Shown in pieces: positions 3,652 to 33,829 of a stretch of 33,829 nt of DNA. The number at the start of each line of letters is the position of its first letter. The first letter of the stretch is position 1. The stretch is taken from NCBI GenBank assembly GCA_028291365.1, contig JAQGIE010000055.1:1-33829 (forward strand), in the 5' to 3' direction. Source of the DNA: Rhodospirillales bacterium. GTDB lineage: Bacteria; Pseudomonadota; Alphaproteobacteria; BOG-932; Roseiterribacteraceae. The position numbers and the translations under genes were made by a program. The notes under the pieces are model-generated. The model saw only the letters and a list, made by a program, of their open reading frames with translations, made no database searches and was not told the origin of the DNA.

Positions 3652-3691
3652 GGGCGTTCTGTCTGTCGTTCAGCGAGCTTCTCCTCGCCAA

Positions 3692-3763: not shown

Positions 3764-3788
3764 TGACCCGGCGGATCTTGCCGGGTCA
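3764..3788 (-). terminator. Hairpin over the rnr stop codon
   Basis: TGACCCGGC and GCCGGGTCA form a perfect 9-bp stem with a 7-base loop; the first three stem bases are the rnr stop codon. There is no U-tract after it, so it is either a weak intrinsic terminator or a 3'-end stabiliser. It separates the housekeeping operon from the DUF1217 genes, which have their own promoter candidate. Confidence 0.5.
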
Positions 3789-8740: not shown

Positions 8741-8777
8741 GCGCGTCCCTATCTGGTCTCCGGGCGGTCGCCCGTCG

Positions 8778-9893: not shown

Positions 9894-10483
9894 GCGCGCT
9901 TGCCACCGATCTTGGGCTCGGTGCCGGCGGCGAGCCGTTGCAGATTCGCTGCATGCTTGCCCCACACAACCGCGGCGACCGCGATCGCGAACCAGGTCAG
10001 CGCGCGGTCACCGAGTCCCCAGGCCGCGAGCGGCAGGATCAGCATCGCCACCAAAGCCGCCAGCGATGAGATCCGGAACAACAGCGCCGTGACCAGCCAG
10101 GCGACGCACGCGGCGACGCCGATGCGCCATTCGAGCGCCAGCATCGTGCCGAGCGTCGTCGCGACGCCCTTGCCGCCGCGAAAGCGCAGCCACACCGGAT
10201 AAAGATGTCCCGCCAGCGCGCCCGCGGCGGCCGCGATCGCGATGCTGGGCTCGTCGGGCGCGAGCGTGCGGGCGAGCAGGACCGCGATCGCACCTTTGCC
10301 CGCGTCGAGGATCAAGGTCGCGGCGGCCAGCGGCTTGTTGCCGGTGCGCAGCACGTTGGTCGCGCCGATATTGCCGCTGCCGATGGTGCGCAGATCGCCG
10401 TAGCCGGCGATGCGCGTCAGCACCAGGCCGAACGGAATCGAACCCAGCAGATAGCCGGCGATGACGGCGAGGGCGAGCGTCAT
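9890..10483 (-). CDS. plsY: Glycerol-3-phosphate acyltransferase PlsY
   Basis: PlsY is an inner-membrane enzyme that moves an acyl group from acyl-phosphate to glycerol 3-phosphate, the first step of phospholipid synthesis. At 197 aa it has the usual length. The N-terminus is a membrane segment ([20 protein letters not shown]), and the three conserved loops are present: [32 protein letters not shown] and [20 protein letters not shown]. About five further hydrophobic stretches fit the family topology. ATG 10483 is preferred over an in-frame start 36 bp upstream that lies in a palindromic repeat. The stop overlaps the start of dprA. Confidence 0.96.
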
Positions 10484-10492
10484 GCGCTGAAT

Positions 10493-10515
10493 GCCCTCTC
10501 CCCGAGGGCGAGGGG
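10493..10515. repeat. Short dispersed-type palindrome between the DsbA-like gene and plsY
   Basis: CCCTCTCCCC followed by GAGGGCGAGGGG has an imperfect dyad with the C-rich and G-rich halves typical of small palindromic intergenic repeats seen in many alphaproteobacterial genomes. It fills much of the 55-bp gap before plsY. A second copy was not seen in this window. Confidence 0.4.
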
Positions 10516-10538
10516 ACACGAATGAGCGCGTGCCAGCG

Positions 10539-11144
10539 TCACCAGCCGCCCGTCTTCAGCCACTTTTCGACCTGGTCGAGCCGGTCGGCGCCCCAGAACG
10601 GTTCGCCATCGACGATGACATAGGGCGAACCGAACACGCCGCGCGCCATGGCCTCGTCGACTTCGCTTTTCAGCCGGTCCTTGACCGGCTGGCTCGACAG
10701 CGCCGCTTCCAGCTCGGCTTCGTCATGGCCCAGCGAACCTGCGATCGCGAGCACGGTCGAGATCGCTGCAATGTCGCGATCTTCGACCCACACCGCATGC
10801 AGGATCGCCTGGGTGAAGCGCACCGCAGCGCGCGGATCGTGATCGCTGAGCCAGTAATGCGCGCGGGCCGCAGCGACGCTGGAGAAGGGGAAGCTCGACG
10901 GGAAGCGCATCTCGACGCCGTTGAGGCGCGCGGTGCGCATGAAATCGTGTTTGGCGTATTTGCCTTTGAGCGGAACGCTCAGCAGCGGCGCCGAGCCGGT
11001 CACTTTGAAGATCGGGCCCAGCAGGACCGGACGCCAGGTGACGCCGCGCCCATAGGCGGCCGCGATCGCGTCGATGCGGGTCGAGGCGACGTACCCGGCC
11101 GGTGAGGAATAGTCGAAATAGAAATCCAGCGGTTCAGCACTCAT
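10539..11144 (-). CDS. DsbA-fold protein, 2-hydroxychromene-2-carboxylate isomerase family
   Basis: At 201 aa it begins [15 protein letters not shown], the typical first strand and helix of the kappa-class GST/HCCA isomerase branch of the thioredoxin fold. There Ser replaces the CxxC of true DsbA (DYSSP at about 11-15). A helical insert follows and the fold closes with [21 protein letters not shown] near the C-terminus, the cis-Pro region and last strands of the family. No signal peptide, so it is cytoplasmic. Characterised members isomerise 2-hydroxychromene-2-carboxylate with glutathione during naphthalene breakdown, but most relatives have no known substrate. It lies 13 bp after pyrC in the operon. 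ATG 11144 is chosen because the conserved domain starts directly after it. Confidence 0.85.
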
Positions 11145-11157
11145 CTGGGCGATCTTG

Positions 11158-12441
11158 TCAGGTAGGGGCATGAAAGACGGTACGGCCGTCGACGATGGTA
11201 CGCAAAACCCGGCCCCGCACCGCATAGCCGTCAAACGGCGAATTTTTCGACTTGGAGTGGAAGGAATCCGCGTCGATCGTCCAGCGCAGATCGGGATCGA
11301 ACAGGACGAGGTCGGCAGGACCGCCGACTGCGAGCCGTCCGAGCTCCTTCAGGCCGAGAATGTCGGCGGGCGCCTGGGTCAGTCGGCGCAGCGCTTCCAG
11401 CAGCGGCAGCACCTTGTCATGCACCAGCGCCAGCGACAGCGGCAGCAGCGTGTCGAGCCCGGCCGCGCCCGGCGCCGCCTGCGCGAAGGGCAGGCGCTTC
11501 CAGTCCTGCGACTGCGGCTGATGATCGGACGCGATGGCGTCGATGGTGCCGTCGGCAATGCCGGCGGCTACGGCCTTGCGGTCCTCGTCGCTGCGCAGGG
11601 GCGGCGACAATTTCGCGAAGGTGCGCCAGTCGCCGATGTCGCGCTCGGTCAGCAGGAAGTAGGGCGGTGCGGTGTCGGCGGTGACGTCGAGACCGCGGCG
11701 CTTGGCGTCGCGCAACAGCGCCACGCCCTCGGCGGTCGAGACGTGCGCGGCGTGATAGCGGCCGCGGGTCAGCTCGACGAGGCGCAGATCGCGCGCCAGC
11801 AGGATCGATTCGGCGCAGGCCGGAATGCCGGCGAGGCCGAGCCGCGTCGCGATCTCGCCTTCATTCACCTGCCCGCCTTCGGCGAGGCGCGGCTCTTCCG
11901 GATGCTGCACGATCGGGCGGCCGAAAGGCCGCGCATAGGCGAGCGCGCGGCGCATCAACTGCGCATCGGCGATGCACCGCGAACCATCGGTGAAGGCGAC
12001 CGCGCCGGCTTCCGCAAGCAGGCCCAGATCGGCGAGTTCGTTGCCGGCGCAATCGCGCGTCGCGGCGCCGTAGGCGAACATCTTGACCTGTTTCACTTCG
12101 CGCGCACGGCGCGCGACGAATTCCAGGCCGGCCACGTCGTCGATGACCGGGTCGGTGTTGGGCAGCATTGCCATCGCGGTGACGCCGCCGGCAGCAGCGG
12201 CGCGCGAGGCGCTGGCGATGGTTTCCTTTTCCTCGAAACCCGGCTCGCCGATCGTGACGCGCAGATCGACCAGGCCGGGCGCGAGACAGGCGCCGTTGCA
12301 GTCGATGATGTCGGCGCCGTCCGGGACCCGCGCGTCGGGCCCGAACGCGACGATGGTCTCGCCGTGAATGACGATCGTGCCGACCGCGTCGAGATTGCTC
12401 GCCGGATCGAGGATGCGGGCGTTGGTGAAAGCGAGCGTCAT
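11158..12441 (-). CDS. pyrC: Dihydroorotase-like protein, probably non-catalytic (PyrC')
   Basis: This 427-aa amidohydrolase-fold protein has the overall shape of a class I dihydroorotase: an APGLVD opening, an HPEEP motif near 180, HVSTAEG near 230, SDH near 302 and a SKSKNSPFDG tail. Key metal and substrate residues are missing. The usual HxH after PGLxD is R61-V62-T63 (DLRVTIGEPG), PHH is replaced by PPY near 257, and DHAPH by DHQPQ. The same pattern is known in proteins such as Pseudomonas PyrC', which have no dihydroorotase activity and serve as structural partners of PyrB. It lies directly downstream of pyrB (52-bp gap), which supports that role. An active dihydroorotase should then be encoded elsewhere in the genome. 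Confidence 0.9.
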   Translation of the reverse strand: MTLAFTNARILDPASNLDAVGTIVIHGETIVAFGPDARVPDGADIIDCNGACLAPGLVDLRVTIGEPGFEEKETIASASRAAAAGGVTAMAMLPNTDPVIDDVAGLEFVARRAREVKQVKMFAYGAATRDCAGNELADLGLLAEAGAVAFTDGSRCIADAQLMRRALAYARPFGRPIVQHPEEPRLAEGGQVNEGEIATRLGLAGIPACAESILLARDLRLVELTRGRYHAAHVSTAEGVALLRDAKRRGLDVTADTAPPYFLLTERDIGDWRTFAKLSPPLRSDEDRKAVAAGIADGTIDAIASDHQPQSQDWKRLPFAQAAPGAAGLDTLLPLSLALVHDKVLPLLEALRRLTQAPADILGLKELGRLAVGGPADLVLFDPDLRWTIDADSFHSKSKNSPFDGYAVRGRVLRTIVDGRTVFHAPT

Positions 12442-20631: not shown

Positions 20632-20731
20632 TCGACGTCGCGCAGCGGCACGCTCGATCTGGCAAGGCGCCGGCCGCTTTGTTTTGTGCAGCACGCCTTG
20701 TAGCCTCCGCGGGACACGAGCGGAGAAGACG

Positions 20732-22438
20732 ATGCGTTTCCAAGTCATGCCCCTGGCGGCGCTGCTGTTGTTCGCGAGCGCCGTTGCGTCGGCCGAGGAA
20801 GGCGACGCGGCGCGAGGCGCGACGCTGTACAAGCAGCGCTGCGCGGTGTGCCACGGCGCCGATGGCGGCGGCGGGCAGGGACCGGCCTTGCAAGGCGTGG
20901 TCGGTCGCAAGGCGGGCGAGGCGCAATTCGGCTACACGCGCGCGCTGCGCCAATCGGGCCTGACCTGGGACGCGGCGACGCTCGACCGCTTTCTCGCCAG
21001 GCCGCCGGCCACCGTGCCGGGCACGACGATGGTGGTCGCGACCTCGAATCCGAAAGAACGCGCCGACATCATCGCGTTTCTCGCGACGCTGAAGCCAGCT
21101 GCCGTGGCCGCGCCGACTGCGCCGCGCGCAGCGACGAGCGCCGCGCCGGCACCGGCCGGCAGCGTGCTTGAGGGCCGTGCCGCGTTCGGCGATTACCGTG
21201 CCGATGCGCCCGGCGTTCGCCGCCACATTACGCTGGCCGCGCTGCCGGCGCCCAACGAGACGCCGTCAGCGCGCAATTCATCGCGCGTGGTCGATCCCGC
21301 ACCGGATGCGCTGCCCAACGTGCCGGCCGGATTCAAGGTCGAGAAATTCGCCGAGAACCTCGCGGCGCCGCGCATCGTGCGCGTCGCGCCCAATGGCGAC
21401 GTGTTCGCCGCCGAAACCGCGGCGGGTCGCATCAAGGTGATGCGCGCGGCGGCGGGCGCAGGCCGGGCGGAAAAGACCGAGGTGTTCGCTTCGGGACTCG
21501 ACGGCCCGTTCGGCATCGCCTTCTACCCCGCCAGCAATCCGCGCTTCGTCTATGTCGCCGAAGTGAATCGCGTCGTTCGCTTTGCTTACAAGGAAGGCGA
21601 CCTCAAAGCGTCGGCCAAGCCCGAAATGGTCGTGCCGCGTCTGGCGCCGACAGCCGGCGGCCACACGACTCGCGACCTCGTTTTCTCGAACGACGGCGCG
21701 CGCATGTTCGTGTCGGTCGGTTCGGAATCGAACGTGTCGCCGGGCGGCGCGGCCAAGCACGGCGACGAGCTGCGCGCCTGGGAGGCCTCGCATGCGGTGG
21801 GCGCCACGTGGGGTGACGAAGAAAATCGTGCCGACGTGCTGGTGTTCGATGCGGAAGGAAAGGGCGGAAAGATCTTCGCCACCGGCATCCGCAACTGCGT
21901 CGGACTCGCCGTGCATCCGAGCTCGGGTGACGTCTGGTGTTCGACCAACGAGCGCGACGGTCTCGGCGACGATCTCGTGCCCGATTATGTGACGCGCGTG
22001 AAACAAGGCGGCTTTTATGGCTGGCCGTGGCTGTATCTGGGCGCGCACGAAGATCCTCGCCATGCCGGCGCGAGACCGGACCTGAAGGACAAGGTCACCG
22101 TGCCCGACGTGCTGCTGCAGGCGCATTCGGCGTCGCTCGGCATGACCTTCTATGACGGGGCGAGTTTCCCGGCCGAGTATCGCGGCGACGGATTTGCCGC
22201 GCTGCACGGAAGTTGGAATCGCGCGCTGCGCACCGGATATAAAGTCGTGCGCATCCGGCTGCGCGACGGTGTGCCGACCGGGGAATACGAGGATTTTCTG
22301 ACCGGACTTGTTCTAAATGACCGCGACGTCTGGGCCCGTCCGGTCGGCGTCGCCGTTGCGAAGGACGGTTCACTCCTGGTCAGCGAAGACGGCAACGGCA
22401 CGATCTGGCGCGTGAGTTATCGCGGCGCGGCACGCTGA
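20732..22438 (+). CDS. Cytochrome c / sorbosone dehydrogenase-type beta-propeller fusion
   Basis: This 568-aa periplasmic protein has a signal peptide (1-21, VASA cleavage). Residues ~22-120 form a class I cytochrome c with CAVCH (C37, C40, H41) and distal Met in VPGTTM (M100). An Ala/Pro linker (~120-150) leads to a propeller domain of the glucose/sorbosone dehydrogenase type (about 190-568). Visible repeats there include ANGDVFAAETAAGRIKV, LVFSNDGARMFVSVGS, GIRNCVGLAVHPSSGDVW and HGSWNR. Such domains are PQQ-dependent or PQQ-like sugar or aldose dehydrogenases, so the heme may take electrons from the active site in the same chain. The substrate is unknown. ATG 20732 follows GGAG at a normal distance. 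It lies 100 bp after the LysR gene. Confidence 0.88.
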   Translation: MRFQVMPLAALLLFASAVASAEEGDAARGATLYKQRCAVCHGADGGGGQGPALQGVVGRKAGEAQFGYTRALRQSGLTWDAATLDRFLARPPATVPGTTMVVATSNPKERADIIAFLATLKPAAVAAPTAPRAATSAAPAPAGSVLEGRAAFGDYRADAPGVRRHITLAALPAPNETPSARNSSRVVDPAPDALPNVPAGFKVEKFAENLAAPRIVRVAPNGDVFAAETAAGRIKVMRAAAGAGRAEKTEVFASGLDGPFGIAFYPASNPRFVYVAEVNRVVRFAYKEGDLKASAKPEMVVPRLAPTAGGHTTRDLVFSNDGARMFVSVGSESNVSPGGAAKHGDELRAWEASHAVGATWGDEENRADVLVFDAEGKGGKIFATGIRNCVGLAVHPSSGDVWCSTNERDGLGDDLVPDYVTRVKQGGFYGWPWLYLGAHEDPRHAGARPDLKDKVTVPDVLLQAHSASLGMTFYDGASFPAEYRGDGFAALHGSWNRALRTGYKVVRIRLRDGVPTGEYEDFLTGLVLNDRDVWARPVGVAVAKDGSLLVSEDGNGTIWRVSYRGAAR

Positions 22439-22542
22439 AATCCCGGATTCCCAATCCGCGCAGTGAACCGCCCGGAGATTTTTTCAACCGCGGCGCGGGT
22501 CTGCGGTAGAAAAAGCAACTGGACGGTGCCTATGCTTGGCCC

Positions 22543-22938
22543 ATGGCACGCATCCTCATCGTTGACGACGACCGACACACATGCGAGCTGCTGCGGCACA
22601 TTCTGGAGACGGCCGCGCACGAGATCGTGACCGCCTATGATGGAACCGATGCCGCGCAACTCCTGCGCACGCGCACGTTCGATCTCGTGATGACCGACAT
22701 CTATATGCCCGACCGCGACGGGTTCGATGTCATGCGTGACGTGCGCAGCCAGCAACCCGACGTGCCGATCGTGATCTTCACCGGCCAGCGCGATCTGCAT
22801 TTCGATCCGCTCAAGATGGCGGAGCGGTTGGGCGCCACGCTCGTCATGCGCAAACCGATCGTACCGGCGACGGTGCTGTCGGCAGTCGAACTGGCGCTTC
22901 ACGGCCCCCGCCCGATCGCCGAGAACGGGATCGGCTGA
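22543..22938 (+). CDS. Stand-alone response regulator receiver protein
   Basis: This 131-aa CheY-like receiver has no output domain. All phosphorylation residues are present: D8-D9-D10 in LIVDDD, phosphoacceptor D52 in LVMTDIYMPDRDGF, T80 in VIFTGQ and K104 in VMRKPI. It probably passes phosphate or acts by protein binding with a histidine kinase encoded elsewhere, since no kinase gene is near. It starts 104 bp after the fusion dehydrogenase. The short C-terminal extension (HGPRPIAENGIG) looks disordered. Confidence 0.9.
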   Translation: MARILIVDDDRHTCELLRHILETAAHEIVTAYDGTDAAQLLRTRTFDLVMTDIYMPDRDGFDVMRDVRSQQPDVPIVIFTGQRDLHFDPLKMAERLGATLVMRKPIVPATVLSAVELALHGPRPIAENGIG

Positions 22939-23022
22939 TCAGCCTCCGTGGGCGATCTGTCGATCGCCGCGAAGCGCGCATGGCGGGCAGGGACAAGGTT
23001 GCCGGCATGCTGCCTCGCCGAC

Positions 23023-23041
23023 CTACCCGATCCTACTCTTC
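23023..23041 (+). promoter_or_regulatory. CTACCC / CTACTCTTC boxes before the permease operon
   Basis: CTACCC (23023-23028) and CTACTCTTC (23033-23041) start 10 bp apart, about 90 bp before the permease ATG. The same 9-mer and a CTACCCC box occur before the TonB receptor gene at 31061-31091, starts 22 bp apart. One shared activator, probably the LuxR/MalT-type regulator of this locus, is inferred. Confidence 0.45.
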
Positions 23042-23069
23042 TTAGCGCCGGGCCCACTCGCCGCTGACA

Positions 23070-23097
23070 TTGGCAATGCACGCGCCTCTTGTATCGA
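23070..23097 (+). promoter_or_regulatory. Promoter candidate for the permease operon
   Basis: TTGGCA (23070-23075) and TATCGA (23092-23097) are separated by 16 bp and lie downstream of the CTACCC/CTACTCTTC boxes. Both hexamers are imperfect, as expected for an activator-dependent promoter. The leader would be about 25 nt and includes AGGGGG just before the ATG. Otherwise 22939-23128 shows nothing coding. Confidence 0.35.
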
Positions 23098-23128
23098 TGA
23101 GGCCGAGGTTTGCCGTGCAGGGGGATGG

Positions 23129-24481
23129 ATGATGCGAACCGACGCAACTGGTCGGGAGGGCGACGATGCGCGCATCGTTGCGGACGCGCCGGGCGCGAGC
23201 CCGGCCCTTGCCGGCGGCGACGAGTTCACGCTCAGCGCCGTTCCTTCCGCTGCCACCACCGCCGCCTACAAGATCGGGATCCTGTTGCTGGCGGCGAACA
23301 TCTCGCTGCCGGCTTTGATCATGGGCGGTGAGCTGGGCATTGGCCTCGGCTTCCGCGCGACCGCAATGGCCTGTCTCTGGGGCGGCCTGATTTTGGCCGC
23401 GCTGGCGGGGCTCTGCGCCTATGCCGGCGCGCGCTCGCGGATGACGACCTATGTCCTGATCATCCGCGCATTCGGCCGCCGCGGCGGCGAATTCATCAAC
23501 CTGCTTCTCTCGCTTTCGGCGATCGGCTGGTTCGGTGTCGTCGTCATGCTGTTCGCGCACACGATCGTCCGAATGGTCCATGCTGCGACACCGATCGGCA
23601 GCGCATCGCTTTGGGCCGTCGCGGGAAGCGTGCTGATGGCGATCACGACCATCAAGGGATTCCGCGCCCTCAATCTGCTGTCGAACTTCATGCTGCCGCT
23701 CAAGACAGGACTCCTCATCTGGGCGCTGGCCGCGGCGATCGAAACCTATGGCATGGGCTTTTCGGGGCCGGTGACCGGCCCCGTCACGCTCGATAGCCGC
23801 ACCGCGATTTCGTTCGTGGTTGGCGGCTGGGTCGTGGGCGCGGTGGTCGCGCCCGACTTCGCGCGCTACGCGCGGTCACGGATCGGTGGTGCATTCGCAT
23901 GCGCCTTTGCGCTGGGCGTCGGCTATCCGCTCGTCCTGCTCGCCTCCTCGGTTCCGGCGATCCTCACCGGCGAGAAGGACATGCTGGCCACGATGGAGAC
24001 GCTCGGGATGGGGCTCTCCGCGCTCGCCATCGTGCTGCTGGCGTCCTGGACCAACGGCGCCTCGAATCTCTACAGCGGGTCGCTGATGCTCGCGACCGTG
24101 TTTCGGCGCCGCTCGCGCGCCACGCTGGTGTGGAGCGCGGGCGCGCTGGGGCTGTTGCTCGGCCTGCTCGGCGTCACCGACGTGATCATTCCGTATCTGG
24201 TCGTGCTGAGCGCCGTCGTGCCGCCGATCGCGGGCGTCTATCTGCCGCGCTTCTTCATCGACCAGCGCGCGGGCGCGGCGCAGCTGACCGAGCGGAACTG
24301 GCGGCCGGAAGCGCTCGTCGCCTTGGCCAGTGGCGTCGCCGCCGCGGCGATCGGTGATCAGAGCGGGTATGCGCTCACGGGCATCGTGGCAATCGACTCG
24401 CTGCTCGTCAGCGCCACCGTCTATGTCGGCTTCGAACTGTTGCGCGGCCGTCGCACGAAGCACAACGAAGCCCGACTGTAA
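23129..24481 (+). CDS. NCS1-type nucleobase/hydantoin:cation symporter (CodB-like)
   Basis: This 450-aa integral inner-membrane protein has about 12 hydrophobic segments after a ~40-residue hydrophilic N-terminus. The first segment IGILLLAANISLPALIMGGELG and the later GGWVVGAVVAPDFARYAR and LLASWTNGASNLYSGSL resemble cytosine permease CodB and other nucleobase:cation symporter-1 members, the family that also includes the hydantoin transporter Mhp1. These take up small N-heterocycles with Na+ or H+. The neighbouring hydantoinase-like genes suggest that the substrate is a related ring compound. Two ATGs in a row (23129, 23132) follow the AGGGGG ribosome-binding site; either may start translation. 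A 76-bp gap separates it from the HyuA-like gene. Confidence 0.88.
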   Translation: MMRTDATGREGDDARIVADAPGASPALAGGDEFTLSAVPSAATTAAYKIGILLLAANISLPALIMGGELGIGLGFRATAMACLWGGLILAALAGLCAYAGARSRMTTYVLIIRAFGRRGGEFINLLLSLSAIGWFGVVVMLFAHTIVRMVHAATPIGSASLWAVAGSVLMAITTIKGFRALNLLSNFMLPLKTGLLIWALAAAIETYGMGFSGPVTGPVTLDSRTAISFVVGGWVVGAVVAPDFARYARSRIGGAFACAFALGVGYPLVLLASSVPAILTGEKDMLATMETLGMGLSALAIVLLASWTNGASNLYSGSLMLATVFRRRSRATLVWSAGALGLLLGLLGVTDVIIPYLVVLSAVVPPIAGVYLPRFFIDQRAGAAQLTERNWRPEALVALASGVAAAAIGDQSGYALTGIVAIDSLLVSATVYVGFELLRGRRTKHNEARL

Positions 24482-24557
24482 CCAACGACATCTGGTTTGC
24501 GCCCGCGATGGGCATGACATCGCATTTCAACATGATCGTGGCCTTGGGAGACGGAGC

Positions 24558-26114
24558 TTGCTGAAAATCGGAGTTGACGTCGGCGGAACAAACACCGACG
24601 CGGTCCTGCTGGACGACAACCGCCTGGTTGCTTCTTTCAAAACCACCACGACGGCGGACGTCGAGACGGGCGTGCGCGACGCGATCACGACGCTCCTCCG
24701 CGCCCAGGCGCTGGATGTCGATGCAGTCGACGCGGTGATGATCGGCACCACGCAATTCACCAATGCGTTCATCGAGCGAAGCCGCCTGACGCCGGTCGGC
24801 GTGATCCGCATCGGCGCACCTGCCACGACCGGCATTCCGCCGCTCTACGGCTGGCCTCGCGAGCTGCTGGACGTGGTCGGTGCAAACCGGATCATCGTCG
24901 GCGGCGGCTATGAATTCGACGGTCGCGAGCTGGCGCCGTTGGACGAAGCGGCGGTGGCGAAGGCGGCGCAGGCCTTTCGCCGGCAGGGCATCGGCGCGAT
25001 CGCAATCTCCTGCTGCTTTGCGCCGGTGAACACCGCAATGGAGCATCGCGCCGCCGAGATCGTGCGCAACGAAATTCCCGACGCCAAGCTGTCGCTGTCC
25101 AGCTCCTTTGGCCGCATCGGCCTGATCGAACGCGAAAATGCGGCGACGATGAATGCGAGCCTCAGCGCGCTGGCCGAACGCGTGGTCGGTTCGTTCCGGC
25201 TTGCGATGAAGAAGATCGGCCTCAAGGCGCCGTTCTACATCAGCCAGAACGATGGAACGCTGATGACCGCCGACGACGTCGAGCGGCATCCGGTTCTGAC
25301 CTTCGCGTCGGGCCCGACCAACAGCATGCGCGGCGCTGCGTTCCTGTCGGGGCTGCGCGACGCCATCGTGCTCGATATCGGCGGCACGACCGCCGACGTC
25401 GGTCAGATCGTCAACGCCTTCCCGCGCGAATCCGCGGTCGCGGTCGATATCGGCGGCGTGCGCACCAACTTTCGCATGCCTGATCTCGTTTCGCGGGGCC
25501 TTGGGGGCGGCAGTCTGGTGACCACAGCGGACGGGATTCGTGTCGGGCCGCGGTCGGTCGGCTTCGAGCTGACCAACAAAGCGCTGGTCTTCGGTGGCGA
25601 CGTGTTGACCGCGACGGACATCGCGGTTGCGGCCGGTGCTGCCGATATCGGCGACAAGTCTCGCGTCGCCCATCTGCCCCCGTCGCTGATCGAGGCCGCG
25701 CTGGCCGAGATCCATCGCCTGGCCGACGAAGCGATCGACCAGATCAAGACCAACAGCAAGCAGGTGCCCGTCGTGCTGGTCGGCGGCGGCAGCGTGCTGA
25801 TCTCGCGTGCGCTGGCTTCGGCGCCCGATATTCGGCGGCCCGACAATTACTCGGTGGCGAACGCGGTCGGTGCCGCGATCGCGCAGGTCGGCGGTGAAGT
25901 CGACAGCGTGTTTTCGTACGAGGCGAGGGGGCGAGATGCCGTGCTCAGCGCGGCGAAAGAAGACGCACGCCGGCGCGCGGCGGATGCGGGGGCCGCGCTG
26001 GACACCGTTCGGATCGTCGAGATCGAAGAGGTTCCGCTTGCCTATCTTCCTGGCAGGTCGGTGCGGGTGCGGGTCAAGGCGGTCGGTGATCTCCGCGCCG
26101 CCGGCGGCCGCTGA
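24558..26114 (+). CDS. Hydantoinase/oxoprolinase family protein (HyuA-like, short form)
   Basis: This 518-aa protein has the ATPase-like actin/hexokinase fold of HyuA/oxoprolinase: GVDVGGTNTDAVLLDD at 5-20, GTTQFTNAFIERS near 62-75, a second phosphate loop VLDIGGTTADVGQI near 270-284 and VLVGGGSVLIS near 400-412. Family members open 5-membered cyclic amides (hydantoins, oxoproline, N-methylhydantoin) with ATP. Standard HyuA proteins are about 690 aa; this one belongs to the shorter kind paired with DUF917 rather than with a HyuB subunit. No hyuB is present. The start is TTG 24558, with GGGAGACGGAG just upstream; the frame is open further upstream into the permease but the conserved fold starts here. 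DUF917 follows after 30 bp. Confidence 0.88.
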   Translation: MLKIGVDVGGTNTDAVLLDDNRLVASFKTTTTADVETGVRDAITTLLRAQALDVDAVDAVMIGTTQFTNAFIERSRLTPVGVIRIGAPATTGIPPLYGWPRELLDVVGANRIIVGGGYEFDGRELAPLDEAAVAKAAQAFRRQGIGAIAISCCFAPVNTAMEHRAAEIVRNEIPDAKLSLSSSFGRIGLIERENAATMNASLSALAERVVGSFRLAMKKIGLKAPFYISQNDGTLMTADDVERHPVLTFASGPTNSMRGAAFLSGLRDAIVLDIGGTTADVGQIVNAFPRESAVAVDIGGVRTNFRMPDLVSRGLGGGSLVTTADGIRVGPRSVGFELTNKALVFGGDVLTATDIAVAAGAADIGDKSRVAHLPPSLIEAALAEIHRLADEAIDQIKTNSKQVPVVLVGGGSVLISRALASAPDIRRPDNYSVANAVGAAIAQVGGEVDSVFSYEARGRDAVLSAAKEDARRRAADAGAALDTVRIVEIEEVPLAYLPGRSVRVRVKAVGDLRAAGGR

Positions 26115-26144
26115 CGCCGCCGCAAATCAATCTGGAGAACGAGC

Positions 26145-27266
26145 ATGGATATCACGCTTGCGGACATCGCGCCGTTGAGCCTCGGCGCCGCCATTCTGGG
26201 TACCGGCGGCGGCGGCGATCCCTATATCGGCCATCTCGCGCTACGGCATCTGATCGAGCAGACGGCGCCGCCGACCGTGATCGACGTCGACAGTCTTGCC
26301 GACGATGCGTTCGTCATCACGGTCGGAATGACCGGCTCGCCATCCGTGATGCTCGAGAAGCTTGTCGACAGGAGCTTCGCCGACGCCGCGGTGCGCCGTT
26401 TCGAGCGCCTGGTCGGGCGCCGTGCCGATGCGGTGCTTCCAGTCGAGATCGGCGGCGTAAATTCGCTCGTGCCGCTGATGACCTCCTGCGTGACCGGACT
26501 TCCCGTGCTGGATGCCGACGGCATGGGCCGGGCCTTTCCGACGCTCGACCGCACCAGCTTCGGGATCGCCGGCGTCTCGCCGTTCCCGGTCGTGACGATC
26601 AACGAACGCCACGACACGGTCATCGTCGAAGCGACCAGCCATGAACGCGGCGAGCGAATTTCGCGCGGCGCTCTCGTGCCGATGGGTGCGTCGGGCAGCT
26701 GCGCGCTGTATCCGATGACGGGCCGCGAAGCCAAGGAAACAACCGTCCGCGGGACGATGTCGCTGGCGCTTGCCCTCGGCCGTGCGGTCGAGGCTGCACG
26801 CGCGGCCAAGGCCGATCCGTTTGAGGCCATCCTCGCCACCGTTGCGTCGGCCAAGCCGAAGATCTTTGGGCGTGTGCTGTTCGAGGGAAAGATCACCGAC
26901 ATCACGCGCGAGACGATCGGCGGATACAATATCGGCACCGGCATCCTGTCGAGCGGCGGCGAGGATGACGCCACGTTCGGCTTCCAGAACGAGCTCCTGT
27001 ACCTGAAACAGGGCAGCGAACTGCTCGCCATCGTGCCCGATCTGATCTGTTTCCTCGACAGCGAGACCGCGCAGCCCGCGATGTGCGAAACGTTGCGCTA
27101 TGGCCAGCGCATCACTGCGATGGGCTTCGCCGCCACCTCGCATTTCCGGACAGCGGCGGGGCTCGCGGCGACGGGACCGGCCTCGTTCGGGCTGCGCGAA
27201 TCCTACGTCGAAATCGAGCGGCTCGGTCGGCAGACGCCTGCAGCTGCAACCGCCTCGGCCAGGTAG
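26145..27266 (+). CDS. DUF917 family protein
   Basis: This 373-aa protein opens with the hallmark glycine-rich LGTGGGGDPYIG (18-29). It continues with VLPVEIGGVNSLVPL and VLDADGMGRAFPTL, then a C-terminal domain with GGYNIGTGILSSGGEDDA and a conserved FQNELLYL segment. DUF917 (PF06032), now also called the S-methyl thiohydantoin desulfurase domain, is regularly encoded beside HyuA-like genes, and the two probably form one enzyme. GGAGAACGAGC before the ATG is a good ribosome-binding site. Cytoplasmic. The exact reaction on the substrate of this locus is unknown. Confidence 0.88.
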   Translation: MDITLADIAPLSLGAAILGTGGGGDPYIGHLALRHLIEQTAPPTVIDVDSLADDAFVITVGMTGSPSVMLEKLVDRSFADAAVRRFERLVGRRADAVLPVEIGGVNSLVPLMTSCVTGLPVLDADGMGRAFPTLDRTSFGIAGVSPFPVVTINERHDTVIVEATSHERGERISRGALVPMGASGSCALYPMTGREAKETTVRGTMSLALALGRAVEAARAAKADPFEAILATVASAKPKIFGRVLFEGKITDITRETIGGYNIGTGILSSGGEDDATFGFQNELLYLKQGSELLAIVPDLICFLDSETAQPAMCETLRYGQRITAMGFAATSHFRTAAGLAATGPASFGLRESYVEIERLGRQTPAAATASAR

Positions 27267-27287
27267 CAGCTTCGGAGTTCCCGCGAC

Positions 27288-28241
27288 ATGCACCGCGAAC
27301 ACGACGACACGCTGTTGCCGTGCGCCTTCATCAACCTGGGCGGCACGATCGGCGAAAGATACGACCGCGAGGGGGGCCTGCATCGTGTGCCGGGCGGTGC
27401 CTTGCTCGATGCCGCCGGACTGCCGGCGCACTGGCCGGTTCACGACCTGGCGCAGATCGACAGCGTGGAGTTGACGTTCGGCGTGCTGTTCGCCGCGTCG
27501 GACATCATCGCGGCGGATGCACGAAGCCGTGGCTTCATCCTCTGTTGCGGCACCGACCTGCTGGAAGAGATCGCGTTCGCCGCTTCGCTTCTGCTTCCGC
27601 TCGACCGCGCAATCGTGATCACGGCGGCATCGGTGCCGTTCTCGGAGCCTGGAACGGACGGACCGGCCAATCTTCGGCGGGCAGCGACGCTACTCGCGCA
27701 GGGCGGCGCCGGCAGACTCTACGTGCTGATGGGCGACATGATCTTCGATGCCGCCGGGCTGGTGAAACTCGAGCCGCAAAGCATCGCGCCGTTCGGCGCG
27801 ACGGCAGGTGCTGCCGGGCGTTTCCGCGCCGACGCCGCGATCCTGTCCGGAGGGACGAGGCCGGAAGACGGTTTTCGTGATCTCACCAGCGCGGACTGCA
27901 CGGCGCGGGTCGCAATCGTCACCGAATGTCTGGACGGGTGCGAAGATGCGTTTCCCGATCCCGCGCGCCTGGACGGCCTCGTCGTTGCCGGCGCTGGTCC
28001 CGGCGGCTTGCGTGAGCGCACCCGCACGATGCTGCGCGAACGCTACCTGCCGCGAATGCCGGTCGTGCTGTCGACGCGGTGCCCGTTTGGCTTCACCGTC
28101 AACCCGCATGTGGCCAAACACGCGCAGCGCCAAGCGCGGCAGGACGGCTTCCTGCTCGACGAATATGCCGGGCTCAACGCGCTACAGGCGCGCGTCCGGC
28201 TGATTCTGGAGATCGGACGGCAGCGGAAGATGTCGGCTTGA
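27288..28241 (+). CDS. Asparaginase-fold amidohydrolase
   Basis: This 317-aa protein has the type I/II asparaginase layout with all known catalytic positions: T20 in NLGGTIG, Y25, S59 (DSVELT), T89-D90 in CCGTDLLEEIAFAASLLLP and K160 in DAAGLVKLEP. VITAASVPFSEPGTDGPANL matches the VLTGAMRP...DGxxNL region. The residue before GTD is Cys instead of the usual His, and the overall sequence is distant from housekeeping asparaginases. No signal peptide, so it is cytoplasmic. In this operon it may hydrolyse a side-chain or ring-derived amide of the imported compound rather than asparagine. It lies 21 bp after the DUF917 gene and ends 15 bp from the convergent luxR stop. Confidence 0.8.
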   Translation: MHREHDDTLLPCAFINLGGTIGERYDREGGLHRVPGGALLDAAGLPAHWPVHDLAQIDSVELTFGVLFAASDIIAADARSRGFILCCGTDLLEEIAFAASLLLPLDRAIVITAASVPFSEPGTDGPANLRRAATLLAQGGAGRLYVLMGDMIFDAAGLVKLEPQSIAPFGATAGAAGRFRADAAILSGGTRPEDGFRDLTSADCTARVAIVTECLDGCEDAFPDPARLDGLVVAGAGPGGLRERTRTMLRERYLPRMPVVLSTRCPFGFTVNPHVAKHAQRQARQDGFLLDEYAGLNALQARVRLILEIGRQRKMSA

Positions 28242-28256
28242 AGCGCGGCGCGCGTA

Positions 28257-30959
28257 TCACTCCAAGGTCATGCGCTCGGCGACTGCAGCTGCCATGGTGC
28301 GACTGTCGACGCCGAGTTTGCGGAAGACGTTCTTGAGATGAAACTTGACCGCGTTCTCCGTGAGGCCGAGCGAACGGGCGATCATCTTGTTCGATCCGCC
28401 CTGCCGCAGATGCACCAGGATCTCGCGCTCGCGCGCGGTGAGCTGCTCGCCATTGTCCTTCGCTTTCCCGGTGGCGATGATGCGCAGGATCAGCCCGGAC
28501 ACGAAATTGGCCTGCGGCGGCGCCAGGTTGATCATCTCCGACCGTTGAAAGTCGCGCAGCAGCCGCAGCATACGCGCGTCGAACTCGAAGAAGGGCTGCA
28601 CGATCTCCTCGGTCGTCGCCAGATCGAGCGCGTCGCCCAGCGCGAGCCGCGCACGTTCGGCGTCGCCGAGCGCGGCGCAGGCGAATGCTTTGAGGATGTT
28701 GGCGCGGATCTGCGCCGGCACACGGCTCGCGGTCTGGCAACGCTCGATCATCGCCTGCGCCAGCTCCAGCGCGTCACCGGCGCGGCCTTCGTGCAACGCC
28801 AGAAGGCAATGCACCGGCATCGCAAAATCCTGCTCGAGCCATCCCGCATCCAGCGCGGGACCTGCCGCCGGCTTCGAGCCGGTCACCAGAAGCAGCGCGG
28901 CGTCCCACTGCTCGGCGTCGATGAACAGCCGCGCCTGCAGGCAGTCCAGCAGCCCCTCCACGCGCGTGAGCTCATGGTAGCGGGCGAGCCGTCTGCCACG
29001 CTCGATCGTGCGGATCGCGGCGTCCAGGCCTGAGGTCAAGAAAGCGATCCGTGCCGCGACATAGGTCGAGATGAAATATTGCTCGAAACAGCCCTCGGCG
29101 AGTTCCAGGCCGGCGAGGCCCAGCTGCGCGGCGCGCGCGGCGGCGGAGAGTTCGTTGCGCTCATACAGGAGCAATGCATCCACCGTATGCGCGATCGCCG
29201 CGTAGGCCGGGGCTTCGTCCGGCTGTCGCTTCAGAACGCGGCGCGCCTGTTCGAGACAGCTACCCGCGGCCGACAGCCTGCCCAGGAACAGATGGCAGAT
29301 CGCGAGCTGAACGGTCATGAAGAACCGTCCTTGCGCCGATCCGCCCCGGTCGAAAATCTGATCGGCGCGGTCGAGCGACTGTACTGCTTCGCTCAACTGG
29401 CCGCCGCGCATTTCCAGCCGACCCTGCACATTGTGCATCAGGCCCTCGAGCCACCAATCGGCGCCCGCGAGTCCCTCTTGCACCCGGCGGTGCGCATCCA
29501 GGTCGGCAAGTGTCGGGTTCGCATCGATGAAGCAGTGGCGCAAGCTTTCGACGATCAGCAGATCACGCGCCAGCGCCGTGTCGACGCTGTCGGGATCGAG
29601 CGAAGCCTGCAACTCCGCCAGGGCGCGTCCGGCCTCAGCGATGCTGCCCAGCTTGAGATTGATCGCGGTTTGGGCAGCCCGCAGCCTGGGACGTTGCCAG
29701 ACGATGTCGGACGGCAGGCTGTCGAGGAGCGAGCGCACGGCCGGCGCCCCGGTACGAATGCAGATCTCGACACAGCCTGCGTTCTCGACAAGTTCGATCG
29801 TGCGCGCCTGATCGCCGCTTTGCCTTGCGTGCTCGACCGCCTCGAACGGCAGACCGCTTCGCTCGAACCAGTTTGCCGCGCATGCATGCAGCCGGGCGGT
29901 GCGTTCCGACGGCAGATTGCGACGTTCGGCATCGAGGAACTCGGCGAAGATGCGGTGATGCCGATACCACTGGCCTTCGTCGTCCAGCTTCATGGTGAGG
30001 CCGTGCAACCCCCGCAAGGCTTCGATGAAGCTCGCCGAGTCGGAACGCTCGCGCACGGCATCGGCCAGCTCGGCGTTGAACCGCGCGCAGATCGAACTCT
30101 CGAGCAGGAACTGCTGCAGCTCCGGTGAAAGCCCGGCAAAGACCTCGGCCGCCAGATAGTCGGCCATGCCGTTGATCGAGCCGAGGAACGAGGATTGCAG
30201 CGACGCGAGCATGCCATTTGCCACCAGCCAAAGTCCGGCGAGCTGCAGCGCGATGGCCCATCCCTCGGTGATATCGGCGAGTTGCTCGATGTCGGCGTAG
30301 GGCATGGAAGCAGGCGCCATGAACGCGTGTGTTTCCGCGTGGCTGAAGCGAAGCTCTTCCTTGCCGAGCTCGATCAGCTGGCCTTGCGCGCGCAGCGCGA
30401 TGAGATTCAGCTTGGGGCGGGTCCGGCTGGACAGCGCGACATGCCAGTTCGCCGGCATGCGGCGCACGAGCACGTCGAGAAGCTCGGCCACCGTGCCGTC
30501 TTCGACAAAATGCCAGTCTTCAAAGAACAGCCATGTTTCTTGCGCGCTCTGTTCGCAGTGCGACAGCACTGTTTCGAGCAGCGCACCCGCGTCGTACGCC
30601 CCATCCCGCCGCAACTGTTGCGGGAGGTCGATGCCTGCATGCACGAGTGCCGAGATAATGCCCGCTACGAAGCGCTCGCGCGGGCGGTCGGCTTTCTCCA
30701 GACCGACCCACGCGGCGCGCGCGCCCGTGTCCAGCACAAATTTGCGCCATTGTGCCAGCAGAGTGGTCTTTCCGTAGCCGGCAGGCGCATGAACGATGAG
30801 CAGCCGACGGCGGCGCCTCTGATTGATCGCCGCAAGCAGTTCGGTGCGATCGATGAGCTGCGTCAAACAAGACGGCGGTGCGTGTTTCGCGCTGCTGAAA
30901 TGGCTGGGGATCGAAGCTCCAACAGCTTGCGCCGGCGATTGGACGAAGACTTGATGCAT
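28257..30959 (-). CDS. LuxR family, MalT-type ATP-dependent (STAND) regulator
   Basis: This 900-aa signal-integrating activator resembles MalT. It has a STAND NTPase with Walker A APAGYGKTTLL near 58-68 and Walker B-like WLFFEDWHFVED, a winged-helix segment, a long tetratricopeptide-like helical sensor region (about 350-800) and a C-terminal LuxR helix-turn-helix (LTAREREILVHLRQGGSNKM ... NAVKFHLKNVFRKLGV). Such proteins bind an inducer and ATP, oligomerise and activate neighbouring genes. It sits between the two plus-strand halves of the catabolic locus and is divergent from the TonB receptor. ATG 30959 is chosen; a GTG at 31013 would add 18 mostly unconserved residues. No good ribosome-binding site precedes the ATG, so a leaderless message is possible. 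Confidence 0.93.
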   Translation of the reverse strand: MHQVFVQSPAQAVGASIPSHFSSAKHAPPSCLTQLIDRTELLAAINQRRRRRLLIVHAPAGYGKTTLLAQWRKFVLDTGARAAWVGLEKADRPRERFVAGIISALVHAGIDLPQQLRRDGAYDAGALLETVLSHCEQSAQETWLFFEDWHFVEDGTVAELLDVLVRRMPANWHVALSSRTRPKLNLIALRAQGQLIELGKEELRFSHAETHAFMAPASMPYADIEQLADITEGWAIALQLAGLWLVANGMLASLQSSFLGSINGMADYLAAEVFAGLSPELQQFLLESSICARFNAELADAVRERSDSASFIEALRGLHGLTMKLDDEGQWYRHHRIFAEFLDAERRNLPSERTARLHACAANWFERSGLPFEAVEHARQSGDQARTIELVENAGCVEICIRTGAPAVRSLLDSLPSDIVWQRPRLRAAQTAINLKLGSIAEAGRALAELQASLDPDSVDTALARDLLIVESLRHCFIDANPTLADLDAHRRVQEGLAGADWWLEGLMHNVQGRLEMRGGQLSEAVQSLDRADQIFDRGGSAQGRFFMTVQLAICHLFLGRLSAAGSCLEQARRVLKRQPDEAPAYAAIAHTVDALLLYERNELSAAARAAQLGLAGLELAEGCFEQYFISTYVAARIAFLTSGLDAAIRTIERGRRLARYHELTRVEGLLDCLQARLFIDAEQWDAALLLVTGSKPAAGPALDAGWLEQDFAMPVHCLLALHEGRAGDALELAQAMIERCQTASRVPAQIRANILKAFACAALGDAERARLALGDALDLATTEEIVQPFFEFDARMLRLLRDFQRSEMINLAPPQANFVSGLILRIIATGKAKDNGEQLTAREREILVHLRQGGSNKMIARSLGLTENAVKFHLKNVFRKLGVDSRTMAAAVAERMTLE

Positions 30960-30977
30960 CCCGCAACATGATGCATC
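30952..30977. repeat. Direct repeat of palindromic TGATGCATC over the luxR start
   Basis: TGATGCATC occurs at 30952-30960 and 30969-30977, 17 bp apart. Each contains the perfect 8-bp palindrome GATGCATC. One copy covers the luxR ATG and the other overlaps a possible -10 (CATCAT on the minus strand, 30973-30968). This is a candidate autoregulatory operator. Confidence 0.45.
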
Positions 30978-30996
30978 GCAGTCATGTGCCTCACAA
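30968..30996 (-). promoter_or_regulatory. Possible luxR promoter
   Basis: On the minus strand TTGTGA (30996-30991) and CATCAT (30973-30968) are separated by 17 bp, each 4/6 to consensus. The predicted transcription start is within a few bases of ATG 30959, which would make the mRNA leaderless and agrees with the missing ribosome-binding site. Confidence 0.25.
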
Positions 30997-31060
30997 GATG
31001 GCTGCTGCCGCACCCACGCGCATGCGTGTCAACGTGCCTGCCCACGCGGAGGGTCGCGGG

Positions 31061-31123
31061 CTACCCCAATTCGGCGGCGTCTCTACTCTTCGTCCAGGTC
31101 GCCCATGCGCAAACGGGGGGTAG
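31061..31123 (+). promoter_or_regulatory. Putative activator boxes before the TonB receptor gene
   Basis: CTACCCC (31061-31067) and CTACTCTTC (31083-31091), followed by GGGGTAG (31117-31123), the inverse of the first box. They lie about 30 to 95 bp upstream of the -10 candidate, a usual place for MalT-type activator sites. CTACTCTTC is repeated before the permease operon at 23033. Confidence 0.45.
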
Positions 31124-31154
31124 CGTTCAACCCACAAGAAGCACGGCCGCCCCG

Positions 31155-31160
31155 TATAAA
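31155..31160 (+). promoter_or_regulatory. -10 candidate of the TonB receptor gene
   Basis: TATAAA (in CCCGTATAAAACGG) lies 30 bp before the ATG. No recognisable -35 lies 16-18 bp upstream (CCACAA at the 17-bp position), which fits an activator-dependent promoter served by the CTACCCC/CTACTCTTC boxes. Confidence 0.4.
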
Positions 31161-31189
31161 ACGGTGGCGCAACAACGGGGATCTGAACG

Positions 31190-33370
31190 ATGCGGAACCA
31201 GAAGGCGCGTTCGTCGCGCTGCCGTAATTTCGTGACCGGCGCAGCGTTGGTGGCACTTTCAAGTACTGGCTTCGCACAACCGGCACGCGCAGCAGAGTCC
31301 GAGCAACTCGTCGAGGTCGTCGTCACGGCGCAAAAGCGCGCGGAAAATCTGCAGCGCGTTCCGCTGGCGGTTACGGCATTCTCGGCGACGATGCTCGAGG
31401 ACAAGCAGATCACCAGCGCGTTCGATCTCGCCCAATATACGCCGAACGTGCAGTTCAGCGGTGTCGGTGCGGCGTCGGCGTCGGCGGGCGCCTTCTATAT
31501 CCGCGGCGTCGGGCAGTTCAACATGCACGCCACCTCCGACCCGGCGGTCGGCGTCTATCTCGACGGCGTCTATATCGCGCGCTCGGTCGGATCGAATTTC
31601 GATCTCGGCGATGTTGCCCAGGTCGAAGTGCTCAAAGGTCCGCAAGGCACGCTGTTCGGTCGCAATACGATCACCGGTGCCGTGTCGATCACGACCAAGC
31701 GGCCGACGTTTGAGTCGGGCGGCAGCGCCGACCTGACCGTCGGCAGCATCGACCAGGTGCTGGCGCGCGCCACGGTCAACGCGCCGCTGGTCGACGGCAA
31801 GCTTGCTGCGCGGTTCACGATCATGGGCAACGAGCGCGCCGCCTGGGGTACCGAGATCGACTCGAAAGGCAAGGTCTGGAACCTCGGCGATGCGCAGCGG
31901 ATGGGTGGGCGCGCGCAATTGCTCTGGCAGGTCTCCGACGATCTCGACGTGCTGTTTTCCGGCGACGGAACGCGCTCGCGCGGCCACTCGACGCCGGGTG
32001 GATTGACCGCCTTCACGCCGTCCGCGACCTCGAACGCGTTCAACGCCACGTCGCCGGTCAAGGTCGGCCCGCAATGGCTGGTCCAGGGCTACACGTCGTT
32101 CCTCAACATCGTGCCCAACGACAATGTCGATACGGCCGGCGCTTCGATGACGGTGACCTGGAAGCCGCGCGACGTCACGATCAAGGCGATTTCGGCGTAT
32201 CGCCAACAATACGCGCAGACGGCGCAGGATTTCGGCGGCGTGCCGGTGTCCTGGATCACGCAGCAGATGACGCAGACGCAATGGCAGATCAGCCAGGAAT
32301 TGCAGGCGACCGGCGACCTGCTCAACGGCCGGCTGAAATATACCGGCGGCCTCTATTACTTCGAAGAGAAGTCGCACAACGACACCTGGGCCGGGCTGTT
32401 CGGCTCCGACCTGGTGATCCCGGCGACCAATTCGGTGCGCAGCGCGTCGGCCTACGGCCAGGCGACGTACGACTTGACCGACAAGCTCAGCATCACCGGC
32501 GGTGCCCGCTACACCGAAGAGCGCAAATCCATTCGCGTGCAGACGACGCTGGGCGGCGCGGTCGTGCTGCCGGACAGTTCGGCGAGCGCGAAATTCCACT
32601 CGGTGACCCCGATGGCCAATATCAAGTATCAATGGACCGACGATGTGATGACCTACGCGTCGATCGCGCGCGGCTTCCGCAGCGGCGGCTTCAATGCGCA
32701 GCCGTTTTCGACCACGGACCTGATCCCGACCAATCCGGAAAAGACGACGACCTACGAAGTCGGCGCCAAACTGACCGGCTTCAACAACCGCGTTCGGCTG
32801 AACCTGGCCGCGTTCTATAACGACTATACCGACATCCAGCTCGGTGCGACGACGCTGACCAACGGCGTCTTCGTCTATCGCAACGCCAATGCGGCCACCG
32901 CGACGATCTATGGCGGCGAAATGGAACTCACCGGCGTGATCGCACCCGGACTGGAGGCGTATCTGAACGGCTCCTACCTGCATTCGAAGATCGCGCCGGT
33001 GGCCGGCTTCACCTTCGGCAATACGCAGCTGCCGTCGGCGCCGAAATTCATGGTCCAGGCCGGCGTGAAATATGCGTTCTCGCTGAAAAACCAGGGCACG
33101 CTGACATTGGACGCGGATACCAACTTCCGCACCGGTGCCTGGCCGCAGTTCAACCCGTCCGCCGCGTCGCGCCAGCCGGCTTATGCGCTGTTCAACGCAC
33201 GCAGCATCTTCGAGCCGCTCGGTTCACCGTGGACTTTCAGCATCTGGGCCAAGAACCTCACCGACAAGAAGTACACGAATTTCGGGCAGACCTCGGGCAG
33301 CGGCGACGTCACGGTGGGCTGGTTCGGGCGGCCGCGTGAAGTCGGTGCAACCGCTGCAGTCAAGTTCTAA
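31190..33370 (+). CDS. TonB-dependent outer-membrane receptor
   Basis: This 726-aa protein has a signal peptide (1-34, ending ARA), a TonB box EVVVTAQ at 42-48, a plug domain with VPLAVTAFSA, FYIRGVGQ, VGVYLDGVYIARS and VEVLKGPQGTLFGRNTITGAV, and a 22-strand-type barrel ending in the terminal Phe (GATAAVKF). The barrel signature FRSGGFNAQPF and the NLTDKKYTNFG segment fit the large receptor group found in sphingomonads and caulobacters. These import siderophores, but also sugars, peptides and other nutrients. Position next to the LuxR regulator and the hydantoin-type genes suggests uptake of this locus's substrate, not necessarily iron. No adjacent FecIR-type genes. Confidence 0.94.
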   Translation: MRNQKARSSRCRNFVTGAALVALSSTGFAQPARAAESEQLVEVVVTAQKRAENLQRVPLAVTAFSATMLEDKQITSAFDLAQYTPNVQFSGVGAASASAGAFYIRGVGQFNMHATSDPAVGVYLDGVYIARSVGSNFDLGDVAQVEVLKGPQGTLFGRNTITGAVSITTKRPTFESGGSADLTVGSIDQVLARATVNAPLVDGKLAARFTIMGNERAAWGTEIDSKGKVWNLGDAQRMGGRAQLLWQVSDDLDVLFSGDGTRSRGHSTPGGLTAFTPSATSNAFNATSPVKVGPQWLVQGYTSFLNIVPNDNVDTAGASMTVTWKPRDVTIKAISAYRQQYAQTAQDFGGVPVSWITQQMTQTQWQISQELQATGDLLNGRLKYTGGLYYFEEKSHNDTWAGLFGSDLVIPATNSVRSASAYGQATYDLTDKLSITGGARYTEERKSIRVQTTLGGAVVLPDSSASAKFHSVTPMANIKYQWTDDVMTYASIARGFRSGGFNAQPFSTTDLIPTNPEKTTTYEVGAKLTGFNNRVRLNLAAFYNDYTDIQLGATTLTNGVFVYRNANAATATIYGGEMELTGVIAPGLEAYLNGSYLHSKIAPVAGFTFGNTQLPSAPKFMVQAGVKYAFSLKNQGTLTLDADTNFRTGAWPQFNPSAASRQPAYALFNARSIFEPLGSPWTFSIWAKNLTDKKYTNFGQTSGSGDVTVGWFGRPREVGATAAVKF

Positions 33371-33398
33371 GAAGCCAAGAAGCAGGGAAGCACGATCC

Positions 33399-33829
33399 AT
33401 GGCGCATATTCGTATTCTGGTGCCGATCACGTCGACGGTCCGCAACGTCGACGACCTGCAATCTCTCGCGCAGCCGGGCCTCACCATCTCTGCGGTGGCG
33501 ATCAGCGCCGGACCGTCGTCGGTCGAATCGCGTGTCGACGAGGCGTTCTGCGTGCCCGGTCTGGTGGCGCTGGCGCTGCAGGCGCAACGTGACGGTGCCG
33601 ACGCGCTGGTGATCGATTGCATGGGCGATCCCGGCCTGGGCGCGCTGCGCGAGGCGGTGCAGATCCCGGTGCTGGGCGTGGCGCAGACCTCGATGTCGGT
33701 CGCGTCGATGCTGGCGCAGCGCTTCGGCGTGGTGACGGTGCTCGATCGCGTGACGACGCTGATGAACGAGCTGGCCGATCTGTACGGGTACGACCGGCAA
33801 TCTGTCGGCTGCCACTCCAGCGCGGTGCC
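33399..33829 (+). CDS. Asp/Glu/hydantoin racemase family protein, partial (cut by window end)
   Basis: The open frame from ATG 33399 gives 143 residues and continues past the right edge. MAHIRILVPITSTV, AISAGPSSVESRVDEAFCVPGL, DALVIDCMGDPGLGALREAV and IPVLGVAQTSM match the first half of hydantoin racemase (HyuE) and its Asp/Glu racemase superfamily. The first catalytic cysteine is C74 in DCMGDPGL; the second is beyond the window. Hydantoin racemase interconverts D- and L-5-substituted hydantoins so both can be opened. AGGGAAG lies about 10 bases before the ATG. It is 28 bp after the TonB receptor gene, so probably the same operon. Confidence 0.85.
   Translation, partial: MAHIRILVPITSTVRNVDDLQSLAQPGLTISAVAISAGPSSVESRVDEAFCVPGLVALALQAQRDGADALVIDCMGDPGLGALREAVQIPVLGVAQTSMSVASMLAQRFGVVTVLDRVTTLMNELADLYGYDRQSVGCHSSAV

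Follow-up and report, generated by a model that had tools for sequence, protein, structure and literature searches.

The closest described relatives of the system reported here are the HyuAB, CapAB and 5-oxoprolinase enzymes (PMC8453981, PMC6061476), with which it shares an A subunit of the ASKHA type, the motifs DxGGTxTD and DxGGT, and a presumed ring-amide target. For caprolactamase it has been proposed that the A subunit phosphorylates and activates the lactam and that the B subunit hydrolyses the intermediate (PMC8453981). Trios of HyuA, a DUF917 protein and a permease with consecutive accessions or locus tags occur in Lactobacillus rhamnosus (PMC7513527) and Clostridioides difficile (PMC12915319); all are uncharacterised and without a TonB receptor, and a MalT-type regulator, racemase or asparaginase has not been reported with them. 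The locus analysed here lies in a 33,829-nucleotide stretch of DNA from a Rhodospirillales bacterium (the window), which is the entire contig JAQGIE010000055.1 (C34) of a 4.37-Mb assembly in 271 contigs (GCA_028291365.1). It encodes the same three families as the trios, and in comparison with the HyuAB, CapAB and 5-oxoprolinase enzymes its A subunit is short (520 amino acids, lacking the C-terminal domain PF19278) and has a DUF917 protein instead of HyuB as partner.

Seven genes of the window belong to this locus; they encode an NCS1 permease, the short HyuA, the DUF917 protein, an asparaginase-fold hydrolase, a MalT-type regulator, a TonB-dependent receptor and a racemase-family protein (Table 1). 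All seven reading frames are open and intact, and each has a Pfam match to the expected family. An earlier note made from the sequence alone had named these genes and families and pointed to their tight spacing, and both observations were confirmed. The gaps within the putative operons are about 76 bp between the permease and HyuA genes, 30 bp between HyuA and DUF917, 21 bp between DUF917 and the asparaginase-fold gene and 28 bp between receptor and racemase. The MalT-type gene is convergent with the asparaginase-fold gene and divergent from the receptor gene. Together with three further genes on a second contig they form a block that we tentatively read, with a probability of about 0.45, as a MalT-controlled catabolic island that imports a small cyclic amide and opens its ring with ATP, here probably yielding an aspartate-type product.

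The racemase gene is truncated by the end of C34. When the racemase of Sphingomonas colocasiae was used as query against this genome, the second half of the gene was located terminally on contig C56 (6863-7207, minus strand). The locus therefore extends beyond the window, and the earlier note was wrong to describe it as complete, because C56 holds further genes of the block. The ends of C34 and C56 have about 34 bp in common with two mismatches, which makes a junction of the two contigs, deduced from this overlap rather than read through, very likely. Both catalytic-type cysteines of the racemase are present, C74 in VIDCMGDPG (window) and the other in LLGCTGFLG (C56). Past the racemase, C56 carries genes for an aspartate dehydrogenase, a divergent LysR regulator, a pyridoxal phosphate (PLP) enzyme and a MarR-type protein, followed by homogentisate dioxygenase, fumarylacetoacetase and a second PLP enzyme.

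The limits of the block were defined by comparison with a genome of the same genus (G004). Positions 20669-22928 of the window align to G004 85600-87839, and positions 3434-7209 of the reverse-complemented C56 align to G004 87877-93994; the breakpoints are window 22928 (G004 87839) and position 3434 of the reverse-complemented C56 (G004 87877). In G004 a gap of 37 bp separates the two native flanks, compared with about 14.3 kb in the present genome. The block, which extends from window position 22929 to the contig end and over about 3.4 kb of C56, is a clean insertion between two native genes and a single insertion relative to G004, by gain here or by loss in G004. From the spacing of the flanks it follows that it holds ten genes, the seven of the window and those for aspartate dehydrogenase, the LysR regulator and the first, dehydratase-like PLP enzyme. 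The MarR gene, the homogentisate genes and the second PLP enzyme of C56 are native and lie outside. The G+C content of the block does not stand out. Neither an aspartate dehydrogenase nor the asparaginase-fold gene of the window was found in the four other genomes of the family that were searched (G001-G004).

Altogether, 80 named loci retrieved with a HyuA alignment were used as the comparison set for neighbourhood counts. Twelve of them carry a TonB receptor gene, and all 12 also have MalT, HyuA and DUF917; a racemase is present in eight and an NCS1 permease in four. These 12 loci span Sphingomonadales, Kordiimonas and several gammaproteobacterial metagenome-assembled genomes. Receptors by themselves are common and would prove little. 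MalT was found in 12/12 receptor-bearing loci and in 8 of the 55 receptor-less loci of at least 12 kb (Fisher p = 2e-8, a value that overstates independence because the loci are related by descent). S. colocasiae (L065) has an orthologous six-gene cluster (identities: DUF917 75%, HyuA 71%, NCS1 68%, receptor 58%, racemase 55% and MalT 47%). A five-gene version, with MalT divergent from receptor, HyuA, DUF917 and NCS1 genes, is found on contig C31 of the genome studied here and in G004 (HyuA 60%, DUF917 42% and NCS1 43-44% identical to the window proteins). The gene-neighbourhood comparison proposed in the earlier note thus returned a recurring core of MalT, receptor, HyuA and DUF917, in the 12 receptor-bearing loci and in two more within the genus, and this core together with the discrete 14.3-kb insertion supports its view of a single unit equipped with an outer-membrane receptor and a regulator of its own. 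A mosaic of independent transport and amino-acid genes whose adjacency has nothing to do with function would agree with the lack of asparaginase and aspartate dehydrogenase genes in most relatives and with the frequency of TonB receptors in such genomes; we regard it as very unlikely in view of the sharp single insertion, the tight gene spacing and the conserved core.

The short HyuA/DUF917 pair as such is distributed from Alphaproteobacteria to Chloroflexota, actinomycetes and Archaea, and a search of viral contigs for DUF917 gave no match. DUF917 genes often occur in tandem pairs beside a single HyuA gene (L068-L072, L078, L080 and others). The window HyuA keeps both phosphate motifs (DVGGTNTD and DIGGTTAD, alignment of 8), and the window DUF917 protein keeps all 42 columns that are invariant among its relatives (alignment of 19). 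HyuB (PF02538) was not found among the scanned proteins of the block (window and C56) and is present on another contig, C46. Because the phosphate motifs are kept, DUF917 takes the place of HyuB and its invariant columns are intact, ATP-dependent ring opening by HyuA and DUF917, with DUF917 as substitute for HyuB, is the most likely reaction of this pair. Neither protein reached the cut-off of a model for a characterised hydantoinase or desulfurase. The closest named models for DUF917 are S-methyl thiohydantoin desulfurase (NF058532, 90 bits, cut-off 450) and thiohydantoin desulfurase (NF058529, 74 bits, cut-off 440), which align along most of the protein. This would fit a DUF917 protein that takes sulfur, or some other substituent, off a thiohydantoin-like ring instead of hydrolysing an amide, but the scores are far under the cut-offs and the partner HyuA would have no obvious role, which makes such a reaction highly improbable.

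The substrate suggested in the earlier note was hydantoin-like, and use of an ordinary 5-substituted hydantoin would draw on the racemase and the hydantoinase of the block and on an N-carbamoylase supplied in trans from C46. The hydantoin-racemase-family gene and the HyuA homology point in this direction, and so does the permease, since the NCS1 family includes Mhp1. Mhp1 is, however, not the closest solved relative of the window permease (30 bits, versus 92 bits for the cytosine permease CodB, 7qoa). C46 carries a separate, classical hydantoin-type locus with an M20 gene of the hydantoinase/carbamoylase family (TIGR01879, 439 bits, cut-off 204), which could provide the missing step; yet with a HyuA, HyuB, TonB receptor, MFS transporter and racemase of its own, this locus looks self-sufficient. 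Like the window, both the C46 locus and the HyuABC pathway of Pseudomonas sp. NS671 have an ATP-dependent ring-opening A subunit, and C46 also has a racemase; the window differs from both, as far as the NS671 pathway is cited in PMC8453981, in having neither HyuB nor an M20 N-carbamoylase. No M20 or nitrilase N-carbamoylase was found in the window or in the receptor-type relatives by tblastn with E. coli AllC, YgeY and YbeM, the nitrilase query being the translation of a pseudogene and a weak probe, and none is among the scanned genes of C56, which belong to other families. A hydantoin route would also leave the asparaginase and the aspartate dehydrogenase unexplained. With HyuA and DUF917 under the model cut-offs, a permease nearer to CodB and a separate carbamoylase locus, the case for a hydantoin substrate is weakened, and we consider it quite unlikely.

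A serious, albeit unlikely, rival is the use of 2,5-diketopiperazines, which HyuA and DUF917 would open to a linear dipeptide, with dipeptidases encoded elsewhere completing the degradation and the asparaginase-fold enzyme deamidating Asn or Gln. It has to be taken seriously because related loci are enriched in dipeptidases. M19 membrane dipeptidases are present in 7/80 related loci versus 0.36 expected (p about 2e-6, six independent), two of the seven being of the receptor/MalT type, and M24 Xaa-Pro-type peptidases in several. Transporters of the Dpp/Opp type, assigned by reading translations, lie beside many HyuA/DUF917 pairs, three M19 genes are present in this genome, and DUF917 and hydantoin racemases have been reported to be enriched near cyclodipeptide oxidases (PMC11055893). 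However, neither the block itself nor the orthologous S. colocasiae cluster showed a gene for a dipeptidase or a cyclodipeptide oxidase. A nitroreductase-fold protein of about 320-400 amino acids recurs beside HyuA/DUF917 (L068, L069, L070, L071, L072 and L077), in most cases with Pot-type ABC transporters, and is possibly a cyclodipeptide-oxidase-like enzyme; the similarity of the nitroreductases near related loci to AlbA (E 0.098) is too weak to claim them as cyclodipeptide oxidases. One M19 gene of this genome lies on contig C133 (L155, 2216-6181), has one in-frame stop in its family match and has as neighbours a gene likely of the MlrC/M81 type and one for an MFS transporter, both assigned to their families by reading.

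The cyclic-amide reading, in which the product is probably of the aspartate type, takes its second part from the downstream genes. The asparaginase-fold protein keeps the catalytic residues T20, T89, D90 and K160, equivalent to T12, T89, D90 and K162 of E. coli AnsB. It shares the fold and these residues with AnsA and AnsB, the type I and type II L-asparaginases, but is under the cut-offs of the family models (TIGR00520, 56 bits, cut-off 314). The position of AnsB Gln59 is occupied by valine, which is not diagnostic: type I asparaginases and GatD lack this glutamine as well, and its absence was dropped as a sign of an N-blocked substrate. A single-sequence structure prediction was unusable (mean pLDDT 39). 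The best outside relative (42% identical) is encoded on a megaplasmid of Rhizobium tropici, near a PLP enzyme and adjoining an ornithine-cyclodeaminase-family protein, the best model for which is the iminosuccinate reductase BhcD (202 bits, cut-off 500). Searches of the phylum and class returned one 29% relative without a similar cluster, and a scan of genome contigs with the single asparaginase sequence returned nothing. The asparaginase-type gene of S. colocasiae is of another, one-domain kind (169 amino acids, PF00710 3e-25); it lies downstream of DUF917 and is separated from it by an esterase-like gene. The aspartate dehydrogenase of C56 passed the cut-off of its model (NF009828, 238.6 bits, cut-off 177; PF01958 3e-32; 2dc1 6e-36). 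The best model for the PLP enzyme is threo-3-hydroxy-L-aspartate ammonia-lyase (332 bits, cut-off 452) and its first solved relative is S. pombe C320.14, followed by others that include threonine deaminases; it resembles a dehydratase such as 3-hydroxyaspartate ammonia-lyase. A candidate aspartate or iminosuccinate enzyme is located near both copies of the window asparaginase type, and these neighbours suggest that the opened product is of the asparagine/aspartate type.

We propose the following import route, reactions, order of steps and regulation. The TonB receptor and the NCS1 permease would import the cyclic amide, and the racemase-family protein would interconvert its enantiomers. The short HyuA would activate the ring amide with ATP and DUF917, in the place of HyuB, would complete the opening. 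For the variant of the island found here, the product would probably be an asparagine/aspartate-type (or 3-hydroxy) amino acid, from which the asparaginase-fold enzyme would take off the amide; the acid would then be converted to oxaloacetate by aspartate dehydrogenase, the PLP dehydratase or both. The MalT-type regulator, which has an ATPase loop (APAGYGKTT), a tetratricopeptide repeat region and a C-terminal LuxR helix-turn-helix domain and scores 282 bits with the MalT model (cut-off 537), may activate the operon of receptor and racemase and perhaps also that of the permease.

Several observations weigh against this model. We know of no assayed enzyme from this HyuA/DUF917 branch. The adenosine motif of CapA, GxxPGP (PMC8453981), is absent from the window HyuA and its relatives, which have VGPxSVG... 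in that region (alignment of 8), and ATP use by the window HyuA is for this reason only inferred. The window-type asparaginase gene is present in 0/80 related loci, the PLP enzyme is under every model cut-off and has serine racemases among its nearest solved relatives, and the two S. colocasiae relatives of the aspartate dehydrogenase are located elsewhere in that genome, in an unrelated cluster; hence, the aspartate part of the model is much less certain than the cyclic-amide part. The suggestion of the earlier note that the asparaginase-fold enzyme stands in for an N-carbamoylase found no support, as its gene is missing from all the related loci and the neighbouring genes hint at an asparagine/aspartate-type step.

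Table 1. Positions of the island genes and related features (window coordinates unless another contig is given; G000, the assembly studied here)
Feature	Position	Strand	Support or content
NCS1-family permease, CodB-like	23129..24481	+	PF02133 3e-15
Short HyuA-type ATPase subunit	24558..26114	+	PF05378, PF01968
DUF917 / S-Me-THD-like protein	26145..27266	+	PF06032 1e-51, PF20906 1e-52; 2o3i 5e-21
Two-domain asparaginase-fold hydrolase	27288..28241	+	PF00710 4e-22
MalT-type regulator (ATPase-TPR-LuxR)	28257..31013	-	PF17874, PF00196
TonB-dependent outer-membrane receptor	31190..33370	+	PF00593, PF07715
Hydantoin/allantoin-racemase family, N-terminal part	33399..33829	+	PF01177 1e-23; 3qvj 3e-22
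Window share of the ~14.3-kb inserted block	22929..33829	.	missing in same-genus G004; synteny breakpoints
Paralogous five-gene module without asparaginase or racemase	G000:C31 (L010) 2287-11186; G004:C1 (L011)		
Separate classical hydantoin-type locus	G000:C46 (L159) 514-10944		TonB receptor, long HyuA, HyuB, M20 carbamoylase-family gene, MFS transporter, racemase

At the other end of the window (3-3651, minus strand) two neighbouring similar proteins are encoded (MSSLAISSWQGLL... and MSISTIPLWQGLL...), an apparent tandem duplication, and a related sequence is present in G004.

The HyuA/DUF917/permease trios are already known from annotation (PMC7513527, PMC12915319). New, provisionally, are the form with receptor, MalT and racemase and its extension by asparaginase and aspartate dehydrogenase: no description of the exact gene set was found in the open-access literature, most subscription journals being outside this coverage. 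A more specific proposal, which we regard as possible but somewhat doubtful, is a previously undescribed route in which HyuA and DUF917 open a cyclic amide based on asparagine/aspartate or 3-hydroxyaspartate (for example, an aminosuccinimide, a compound of the hydantoin-5-acetate type or a cyclic dipeptide containing Asn or Asp), the asparaginase-fold amidase and aspartate dehydrogenase act next, and a TonB receptor and a MalT-type activator are dedicated to the route. DUF917 is widespread and mostly uncharacterised, and such a route, if true, would give it an ATP-dependent ring-opening role in which it replaces HyuB. The island, which is missing in a sister species and brings along import functions, an activator and downstream enzymes, offers a bounded set of about ten genes for probing the substrate class and the reaction of HyuA and DUF917.

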